Positions 37,501 to 41,824 of a stretch of DNA of 55,185 bases are shown here, in pieces. Source of the stretch: Candidatus Omnitrophota bacterium (GTDB lineage: Bacteria; Omnitrophota; Gorgyraeia; Gygaellales; Profunditerraquicolaceae); NCBI GenBank assembly GCA_028712505.1, contig JAQTQC010000008.1, positions 1-55,185 of the forward strand, written 5' to 3'. The notes under the pieces were generated by a model. The model was not told where the DNA came from and made no database searches. It saw only the letters and a list, made by a program, of their open reading frames with translations. How positions within the stretch are numbered: position 1 is the first letter of the stretch; every line of letters starts with the position of its first letter. A program made the translations under genes and the position numbers.

Positions 37501-38061
37501 ATGGAGAATCTGAGGCTGTTGTTTGTGGTCGCTAAATTGTTAAGTAAGAACAAGTCGATACTTCACCATGGAGGCAGGGTTGCTAAGCTCGCCTGCGCTA
37601 TCGGAGAGAGAATGAAATATTGCGAAGCAGGGCTTGAACATATCCGTTTCGCCGCGATTGTCCATGATATCGGTAAAACCCAATTATCGTCGGAGATCGT
37701 GAATAAGCCGGGTGAATTTGATGAGAATGAGCGGGTTTTGATAAAACGACATCCTGAATTGGGGTATCGTTTGCTAAGATTTTTAAGGTCGGATTTGATT
37801 ATCGCGGAGGTCGCTTTACAGCACCACGAAAGGCTGGATGGATCAGGATATCCCTTTGGATTGAAAGCAAAGGATATTAACCCGGTTTCTCGAATAATTA
37901 CGGTTGCCGATGTGATTGATACCATGGTTTCTCCGCAGGTATATCGGCCGGCATTAAGTATAAACAAAGCTTTTAGGGAAATTAAGCAAAACTGTGGTAA
38001 GCTATATGATCCTCAAGTTGTCGCAGTAAGCCTGTCGCTTATTGAAAAACGAGAATTTTAG
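37501..38061 (+). CDS. HD-GYP domain protein, probable c-di-GMP phosphodiesterase
   Basis: A 186-residue stand-alone HD-GYP domain with no sensor part. Metal-binding residues are in place: H22/H23 start, AAIVHDIGK (H55, D56), KRHPELG (H84), HHERLDGSGYP (H108, H109 and the GYP loop at 116-118) and VADVIDTM. The family hydrolyses cyclic di-GMP (or cGAMP) to GMP. It starts five bases after the RND stop and should be co-translated with cassette B. A GEMM-I c-di-GMP riboswitch lies 3.6 kb downstream, so the second messenger is clearly used here. No GGDEF cyclase is present in the window. Confidence 0.9.
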   Translation: MENLRLLFVVAKLLSKNKSILHHGGRVAKLACAIGERMKYCEAGLEHIRFAAIVHDIGKTQLSSEIVNKPGEFDENERVLIKRHPELGYRLLRFLRSDLIIAEVALQHHERLDGSGYPFGLKAKDINPVSRIITVADVIDTMVSPQVYRPALSINKAFREIKQNCGKLYDPQVVAVSLSLIEKREF

Positions 38062-40389: not shown

Positions 40390-41034
40390 ATGGTTGTTTT
40401 AAACAGGAAAGATAGAGATAGATTATTGCGCAAGGCCGATATCCTTAAGGCTGCCGAGCATGTATTTGCTTTAAAGGGTTATGACAAAGCAACAATCCAG
40501 GATATCGCTAAGAAGGCACAGTATGCTACCGGCACAGTATATTTGTATTTCAGGGATAAAGGCGACCTTTATTGTTCGCTTCTTGAAGAGAAAATGAAAG
40601 ATCTTCTGTCCGGGATTAAAGAAAAGACATCTCTGGTTAAAGACACTAAAGCAAAGCTCGAGATTTTCCTCGAGGAAGAACTGGGATTTTTTAAGCTAAA
40701 CCAGGATTTCTTCAAGATATTTGTCTCCGAGAACAATGGATTAAGGTTCGCTATAGGTTTTAGAATCTCGAGATCTCTTGTATTCCGTGAATATTCCGAA
40801 TGCGTTTCCAATCTTGTCAAGAAAGCGCAACAAAAAGGTTTGATCAGGAGGGATCTCTATCCTGATCAGATTATCGATATTTTCCGATCTATTTTCACAT
40901 CAGTGATTCTTGGCTGGCTCCGGAAGGAACTGCGGGAGCCCAAGGATGCCAAAGAGATGTCCCGTTTCGTCCTTGATATCTTCTTAAACGGGATAGGATG
41001 TAAAAAAGGGTTGATCACGGATTGTTGTATCTAA
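40390..41034 (+). CDS. TetR-family repressor (paralogue 2)
   Basis: A 214-residue regulator whose N-terminal half is clearly related to the regulator at 31615: RKADILKAAEHVFALKGYDK and ATIQDIAKKAQYATGTVYLY match nearly position by position. The helical ligand domain is more diverged (NQDFFKIFVSENNGLRFAIG). Thus cassette B is bracketed by two related TetR genes. No TGAACA palindrome was found before this copy, so it is probably transcribed with the genes before it. Its 3' end overlaps that of the minus-strand gene by four bases. Confidence 0.87.
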   Translation: MVVLNRKDRDRLLRKADILKAAEHVFALKGYDKATIQDIAKKAQYATGTVYLYFRDKGDLYCSLLEEKMKDLLSGIKEKTSLVKDTKAKLEIFLEEELGFFKLNQDFFKIFVSENNGLRFAIGFRISRSLVFREYSECVSNLVKKAQQKGLIRRDLYPDQIIDIFRSIFTSVILGWLRKELREPKDAKEMSRFVLDIFLNGIGCKKGLITDCCI

Positions 41035-41594
41035 CGATTTCCCTTCCAGGCTATCTTAAATTCTTCGGCTCTTTCAATTCTTGAGGCAACAGTTTCCTTG
41101 CCGTTTTTAAATCCGGTTAAGCCGAGATTCCATGCTTTATGCATAATGTCAAATACCTGTTCTTCTGTTGCGCCTTCCGGGATATAATCTTGAAGGTTTT
41201 GAAGCAATAAATCCGCAAACGCCTGGCTTGCCAATTCATATAATTTCGGAGAGTTGAGAATATCCTGCCAATTGTAATCTTTAAAAAAAACGTAGGTCCT
41301 TTGGACATCTTCATAAGCTTCGGGGCTTAAACCGTATGTTCCGAAACCCCGGGAATCGGGATGGACATAGTTAGGCGGTACAGCTTCCGGAGGAGAATAT
41401 GGTTCAGGGCTTTCCAGGTAGGTTAGGCCTAGCCTTAGGTATTCCCATAATTGAGTATTGGCATATTGGAATTGTGATTGAGATAACTGCGGTTCAGGAA
41501 GTATAAAAAATCCGGCAGATAGCGGTTTGGCTTGCAATATTATTACTAGTGCAGGCAGTAGAATTATGTTTGTAATCCGCAGCCTTTTTAGCAT
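41031..41594 (-). CDS. Secreted protein, possibly lysozyme-like, under c-di-GMP riboswitch
   Basis: The only minus-strand gene in the window, 187 residues. MLKRLRITNIILLPALVIIL starts a signal peptide ending near PLSA. The mature part has WEYLRLGLTYLESPEPYSPP, HPDSRGFGTYGLSPEAYEDV and, at the end, MHKAWNLGLTGFKNGKETVA then SRIERAEEFK. The order of a possible catalytic Glu region, a GYGxxGLTP-like segment and an AWNLGxxG...SRIxRA tail recalls lysozyme-type transglycosylases, but I cannot assign the family firmly. A GEMM-I riboswitch precedes it, and the GAGG ribosome-binding site is paired in a long hairpin. It is probably made or withheld according to c-di-GMP. Confidence 0.7.
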   Translation of the reverse strand: MLKRLRITNIILLPALVIILQAKPLSAGFFILPEPQLSQSQFQYANTQLWEYLRLGLTYLESPEPYSPPEAVPPNYVHPDSRGFGTYGLSPEAYEDVQRTYVFFKDYNWQDILNSPKLYELASQAFADLLLQNLQDYIPEGATEEQVFDIMHKAWNLGLTGFKNGKETVASRIERAEEFKIAWKGNR

Positions 41595-41649
41595 AAGAGC
41601 CTCATCGAAAATGGCCCTGGTAGCGTATGCCGGGCCGGATGAGCCTCTT
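41595..41649 (-). promoter_or_regulatory. Expression-platform hairpin hiding the ribosome-binding site
   Basis: On the minus strand AAGAGGCTCATC (41649-41638) pairs with GATGAGGCTCTT (41606-41595) at 11 of 12 positions. An inner GGCCC/GGGCC stem lies at 41636-41632 and 41617-41613. The GAGG ribosome-binding site (41603-41600) is inside the 3' arm, and the arm touches the start codon at 41594. Formation of the hairpin should block translation. Confidence 0.7.
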
Positions 41650-41675
41650 TTTATGCCTAAGGGGATGAATATTTA

Positions 41676-41762
41676 GCGCTCTTTGGTGGCCCCACTATCC
41701 CCTAAGGACTGGAAGCTTTGCGTCCCAGCATTGCTGCTAGTTTGCCTTTGTCAGTAGCTTAG
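41676..41762 (-). promoter_or_regulatory. Cyclic di-GMP-I (GEMM-I) riboswitch aptamer
   Basis: Read on the minus strand, the RNA has the highly conserved blocks GGCAAAC (41746-41740), the short P2 stem CAGC-AAT-GCTG, GGGACGCAAAGC (41726-41715), TCCAGTCCTT and then AGTGGGGCCACC (ending at 41685), in the order and spacing of the GEMM-I family. It sits in the 5' leader of the secreted-protein gene. Exact ends of the P1 helix are approximate. The c-di-GMP phosphodiesterase-like gene at 37501 is close by. Confidence 0.88.
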
Positions 41763-41795
41763 AAAACCTGATTTTCAATTATTATTTCTAATAAA

Positions 41796-41824
41796 AGTAT
41801 GCACTATTTTCAGTTTACTTTCAA
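41796..41824 (-). promoter_or_regulatory. Candidate promoter for the riboswitch-controlled gene
   Basis: On the minus strand TTGAAA (41824-41819), a 17-base spacer and CATACT (41801-41796). RNA would begin near 41789, upstream of the aptamer. Confidence 0.45.

Follow-up and report, generated by a model that had tools for sequence, protein, structure and literature searches.

A c-di-GMP-I riboswitch that probably controls a secreted lysozyme-fold protein in Candidatus Omnitrophota

The locus described here raises the question whether a gene for a small secreted protein of Candidatus Omnitrophota is controlled by c-di-GMP through its leader and, if so, at which step and in which direction. The host is a MAG of 1.4 Mb in 42 contigs, and the window is the whole stretch of DNA that was analysed (55,185 nt). 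Within the window, the leader and its gene comprise the following features:

41796..41824, minus strand: promoter-like sequence TTGAAA-17-CATACT, identical to the consensus at 9 of 12 positions, with a transcript start at approximately 41789
41681..41755, minus strand: c-di-GMP-I riboswitch aptamer identified by cmscan, with G20 at 41746, C44 at 41722, A47 at 41719, G83 at 41695, and C92 at 41686
41656..41666, minus strand: AUCCCCUUAGG, candidate switching strand that could form 10 of 11 pairs with the tip of aptamer arm P3 (P 0.11)
41595..41649, minus strand: 55-nt hairpin in which the Shine-Dalgarno sequence is paired and which directly adjoins the start codon, identified by folding and ortholog comparison
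41613..41636, minus strand: inner hairpin followed by AUUUUC, with a dG of -10.6 and a weak U tract, at the site of the second terminator of the ortholog in genome G004
41600..41603, minus strand: GAGG Shine-Dalgarno sequence inside the 55-nt hairpin, with its G-A-G paired
41031..41594, minus strand: gene for a secreted 187-aa protein with a lysozyme/lytic-transglycosylase fold in predicted models and E61 at the catalytic position

The aptamer and the ribosome-site hairpin

The aptamer was matched by two covariance models of one clan. A cmscan of the whole window yielded RF03167 at 41755-41681 with 61.0 bits against a gathering score of 59 (E 5.3e-12), and in the whole-genome scan RF01051 scored 59.3 bits against a gathering score of 35 (E 2.3e-11). 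The contacts to c-di-GMP are G20, A47, C92, and the interhelical pair C44-G83 in Vc2 numbering (PMC4744006), and all of them were found when this numbering was mapped onto the window aptamer. The sequence-only reading had recognized the riboswitch by four GEMM-I blocks in the minus-strand leader; all four are in place, and both the RF01051 model and the contact positions, which it had named as checks, agree with that identity. The aptamer further shares both arms and a GNNA-type loop with the Vc2-type riboswitches of RF01051. RF03167 (c-di-GMP-I-GGC) is the best-scoring model, but its consensus (GCGAAG) has a G at the A47 position whereas alignment places an A there in the window aptamer (GCAAAG). 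We therefore dropped the GGC identity, although the score exceeds the gathering cut-off, and regard the aptamer as an ordinary c-di-GMP-I type by its contact bases. Taking model score and contacts together, it is predicted to bind c-di-GMP. Compared to the nearest ortholog (G004), whose protein is 75% identical, the aptamer displays two differences while the linker 3' of it is no longer alignable. This pattern suggests that the aptamer is still under selection.

Upstream of the aptamer, the agreement of the promoter-like sequence with the consensus has to be read against a chance expectation of 1.6 such sites per region; a TTG-17-[CT]AT layout occurs at a comparable distance in 8 of the 14 orthologs. 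Downstream, the hairpin at 41649-41595 has a dG of -25.6 kcal/mol (z -3.5 versus mononucleotide shuffles). The start region from -60 to +15 reached -27.4. Across 31 further genes in the window the mean was -11.4 (sd 5.5) and the lowest value -25.9, so that among these 32 genes the riboswitch-led one starts in the most stable structure. The hairpin recurs in the same-genus orthologs G004 and G024 with differing 5' partner strands, AAGCG/CGCUU in G024 replacing AAGAG/CUCUU of the window. As pairing of the Shine-Dalgarno bases is maintained with changing 5' partners, the hairpin is backed by comparison in addition to folding, and the earlier description of a 55-base element hiding GAGG and touching the start codon proved exact. 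A Shine-Dalgarno sequence within a stable, conserved hairpin is one feature expected of a translational riboswitch, the other being sequestration that depends on the aptamer state. The terminator scan tool made no call on the inner hairpin.

On the plus strand, positions 41591-41655 read as the ribosome-site hairpin followed by TTTTTATG, which might end transcripts from a TetR gene (40390-41034); the scan tool did not call a terminator in this orientation either.

The secreted protein and its coupling to the riboswitch

The 187-aa protein starts with an apparent signal peptide, as read from its sequence. Searches of Pfam, NCBIfam, and PDB sequences gave no match beyond chance (PDB matches to T-box proteins were dismissed as such). 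AlphaFold models of two family members that are approximately 32% identical are confident, with a pLDDT of about 95 in the domain. Nearly all top Foldseek matches of these two members were lytic transglycosylases, lysozymes, or destabilase, with probabilities of up to 1.0, a best target TM-score of 0.69, and E-values not below 0.001. The predicted models thus lend good support to a lysozyme fold and bear out the sequence-only reading, which had suspected lysozyme-like features in a signal-peptide protein and had proposed structure prediction of the 187 residues.

With GH23 lytic transglycosylases and invertebrate or goose-type lysozymes (MltE, Slt, destabilase), the family shares the predicted fold, a glutamate at the end of a helix, and a W/Y-N-x-G-like turn before the last helix; it differs from them in having no Pfam, NCBIfam, or PDB profile match. 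The product is most likely a divergent, peptidoglycan lytic transglycosylase-like enzyme, its activity being suggested by E61. This residue ends the first domain helix, is conserved in at least 90% of the family, and was placed on the SLT glutamate when hhalign was run against Omnitrophota SLT domains, in a marginal match (P 0.014). It also argues against a protein that has the lysozyme fold but acts in a wall-binding or inhibitor-like manner instead of as an enzyme. We consider such a non-enzymatic role the less likely one, although not a far-fetched one, as the Pfam SLT/GH23 profiles matched none of 15 family members, the GLMQ motif typical of lytic transglycosylases has given way to other residues, and the profile similarity is marginal. 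The host genome yielded no Pfam SLT domain when searched. The SLT domains of G010 and G004 (L074, L075) are located in open frames of 14,792 and 12,627 codons, respectively, and thus belong to giant proteins.

Relatives carrying the gene are Candidatus Omnitrophota MAGs; a search with an alignment found four of them and a single-sequence search none. Overall, 14 of 384 genomes of the class contain the family (one of the 14 by a weak match that was not accepted), and it is also present in G024 and in one further MAG. Locus L059 (E 2e-4) was not taken as an ortholog, and L058 was left out of the leader count because it has no readable leader. The leader could be read in 14 family members, namely the one of the window and 13 in relatives, and in every case the aptamer precedes the gene. 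The aptamers of 11 of these leaders score at or above the gathering score, and those of the other three (E 0.0005-0.02) fall below it because of an insert. In the mechanism we propose, a single gene for a secreted, divergent lysozyme-fold protein would be controlled by the canonical c-di-GMP-I riboswitch in its 5' leader.

Terminators in relatives and the possible direction of control

In each of the 13 relatives, the stretch from the aptamer to the start codon contains a terminator-like hairpin with a U tract behind it. In 12 of them it occupies an aptamer-proximal place, and in several another such hairpin directly precedes the start codon. Such a structure was also found at 28 of the 32 further riboswitches of this type from the class, compared to a background of 21 in 150 random stretches (14%). 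In the window, the leader is shorter by 42 nt than in G004 and contains one weak terminator candidate, the inner hairpin, and none according to the scan tool. The ancestral platform of the family would have been an intrinsic terminator 3' of the aptamer, often joined by a ribosome-binding-site hairpin. By this comparison, this species has apparently lost the aptamer-proximal terminator and kept only the ribosome-site hairpin. With the terminator gone, any control that persists must work at the level of translation (or through Rho or mRNA decay), and the leaders of the two sister species would capture a shift of platform from terminator to ribosome-site hairpin. The leader comes from a single MAG, and its shortness relative to that of G004 could be put down to faulty assembly; such an error is highly improbable as the origin of the missing terminator, since the leader is unbroken within a 55-kb contig and the structures on both sides of the gap are intact.

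The fourth aptamer of the host genome (L001, G000:C32:282-373, minus strand) has no terminator 3' of it by the same scan; it runs toward the contig end.

We then considered whether ligand binding could act on the hairpin. In the folding model, the pairing probability of the Shine-Dalgarno G-A-G was near 1 with the aptamer imposed or free. The openness of the start codon was approximately 0.1 in the free ensemble, fell to 0.0 when the aptamer was imposed, and rose to 0.4 under a P3-opening helix. This anti-P3 helix (41656-41666) was rejected as a proven switch because it performed no better than chance, and as the best candidate (P 0.11) it marks the limit of the window, in which no alternative pairing between aptamer and platform clearly beat shuffles. 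The switching of the hairpin by the aptamer, as put forward in the sequence-only reading, was thus not borne out, the Shine-Dalgarno sequence being buried in both modelled states. With the hairpin folded in the ligand-free as well as in the aptamer-formed state, its control by c-di-GMP stays a proposal, as does the direction. In the relatives, terminator and aptamer fold together without overlap in the leaders of this gene, and a general antiterminator was rejected, as only G313 beat shuffles (z -2.4, 1 of 12 tested).

Taken together, we consider it fairly likely that a c-di-GMP-I riboswitch controls the secreted lysozyme-fold protein from a leader that has lost its ancestral terminator and retains the ribosome-site hairpin. 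As a working choice, preferred only weakly, c-di-GMP binding would lower expression. The opposite direction, in which binding opens the platform and raises expression, appears less likely. It draws on other riboswitches of the class (e.g., L062 and L033) in which the terminator reuses the 3' strand of the aptamer, so that the ligand should prevent termination; in the leaders of this gene, however, the aptamer and the terminator share no bases and fold at the same time, and aptamer formation in the window makes the start codon slightly less open, if it has any effect. Equally doubtful in our view is an aptamer that still binds c-di-GMP here but exerts no gene control, with the leftover hairpin keeping expression low and constant. 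The presence of the hairpin in both the free and the aptamer-imposed ensembles and the non-significant switching helix would fit such a state, for which the Bc1 riboswitch of Bacillus thuringiensis is a precedent: Bc1 binds c-di-GMP and has two terminators, yet expression does not respond because the second terminator stays folded (PMC11218506). The relatives of the window gene resemble Bc1 in combining an aptamer, in several cases tandem terminators, and ribosome-site structure; Bc1 belongs to another phylum and gene, and the window leader differs from it in having the start-proximal hairpin only. A sister-species aptamer that is nearly unchanged next to a diverged linker speaks against the absence of control, as it suggests that selection persists. 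We retain a controlling riboswitch, with repression as the weakly favored direction. Compared to Vc2-type members of RF01051, the window riboswitch differs in its phylum, its undescribed target family, and its terminator-less platform. The aptamer itself is ordinary; the novelty lies in the target family, in the loss of the terminator, and in the elaborated aptamers of relatives.

Elaborated aptamers and the c-di-GMP network of the class

Three of the 14 orthologs (L051, L056, and L057) have approximately 44 to 86 extra nt between GGGAC (or GGGC) and GCAAA. These and further cases of the class carry two abutting hairpins between C44 and G45:

L051:1170-1305, plus strand: elaborated aptamer
L056:2148-2319, minus strand: elaborated aptamer
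L057:1214-1340, plus strand: elaborated aptamer
L089-L126: elaborated aptamers

A pattern search in the class gave 37 matches in 31 genomes, compared to 0 for the reversed pattern. One match (L110 in G045) turned out to be an ordinary aptamer and was dropped, leaving 36 cases in 30 genomes, or 37 in 31 genera when G365 is added. In 31 of these 37, the insert consists of two hairpins separated by at most one linker base and anchored at both ends, whereas dinucleotide shuffles gave a mean of 1.7 (maximum 6). The paired arms of the inserts vary freely, in a count that is not independent because the hairpins were chosen by folding. Of 20 elaborated aptamers scanned, 18 match c-di-GMP-I models, and only four pass the RF01051 cut-off. 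As the 5' contact bases and A47 are fixed by the search pattern, their presence is no evidence, and it is the model matches that count. Among 57 genomes of other classes, one has a pattern match, taken as a raw match. Long c-di-GMP-I matches in other genera (L060-L072) look insert-like and proved to be ordinary P3 extensions. A mobile-element origin of the inserts was rejected, because they recur at one site in 31 genera and the junction sequence of G365 occurs once in that genome and is absent from G076 and G396. Based on these results, the class quite probably has an elaborated c-di-GMP-I form in which the two-hairpin insert between C44 and G45 creates a four-way junction at the base of P2, adjacent to the ligand site; the insert may tune binding or add a second input. 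Titles and abstracts of the literature held nothing on point on a c-di-GMP riboswitch with a four-way junction. If true, a textbook riboswitch would thereby gain a new structural form, whose members mostly score below the Rfam cut-off.

The host genome contains four c-di-GMP-I aptamers and six GGDEF domains, and c-di-GMP-I riboswitches occur in 107 of 115 genomes of relatives with up to 17 copies per genome. The lineage had been called little studied, and in the open-access literature we found no paper joining Omnitroph- with riboswitch or Omnitrophota with c-di-GMP. The stand-alone HD-GYP gene pointed out 3 kb away is real (37501-38061, plus strand; HHE.LDGSGYP, PF13487 E 1e-31), but it lies on the opposite strand with nothing linking it to the riboswitch gene, and its proximity was discarded as evidence.

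Genes behind approximately 30 riboswitches of relatives and behind two more of the host genome were scanned for families. They encode RlpA lytic transglycosylases in two cases, and envelope or secreted proteins are also found among the others, which comprise exosortase-associated TIGR04073 proteins, GspC-like and pilin-like proteins, a GH1 enzyme, a beta-helix protein, a histidine kinase, and a response regulator; further GH1 assignments (L020, L030, L031, L037) are by sequence likeness to the scanned GH1 alone. The riboswitches before RlpA-type genes are those of L028, L035, and L106 in other genera, L106 being assigned by sequence only. In the host (L003:1501-2672, C19), a c-di-GMP-I riboswitch with a terminator precedes a REP-associated tyrosine-transposase-like gene that is fused to a membrane and coiled-coil segment. 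Many riboswitches of the class are followed by a small protein that recurs and displays a motif resembling (F/L)(N/D/S)RE(Q/E)(V/L)D(Y/F)LDK (L021, L025, L004:1854-2117, L092, L096, L097, L101, L102, L105, L107). It looks like a ribbon-helix-helix-type regulator, and the two copies scanned had no family match.

These data reveal that c-di-GMP riboswitches form a dense network in a phylum on which we found no paper dealing with either riboswitches or c-di-GMP. As the network is tied to a new lysozyme-fold family, with coupling in 14 of 14 members, and to RlpA, sequence alone now suffices to test c-di-GMP control of wall remodelling. The sensor has been kept with the gene in every readable relative, and this lineage therefore probably controls a cell-wall enzyme by c-di-GMP.
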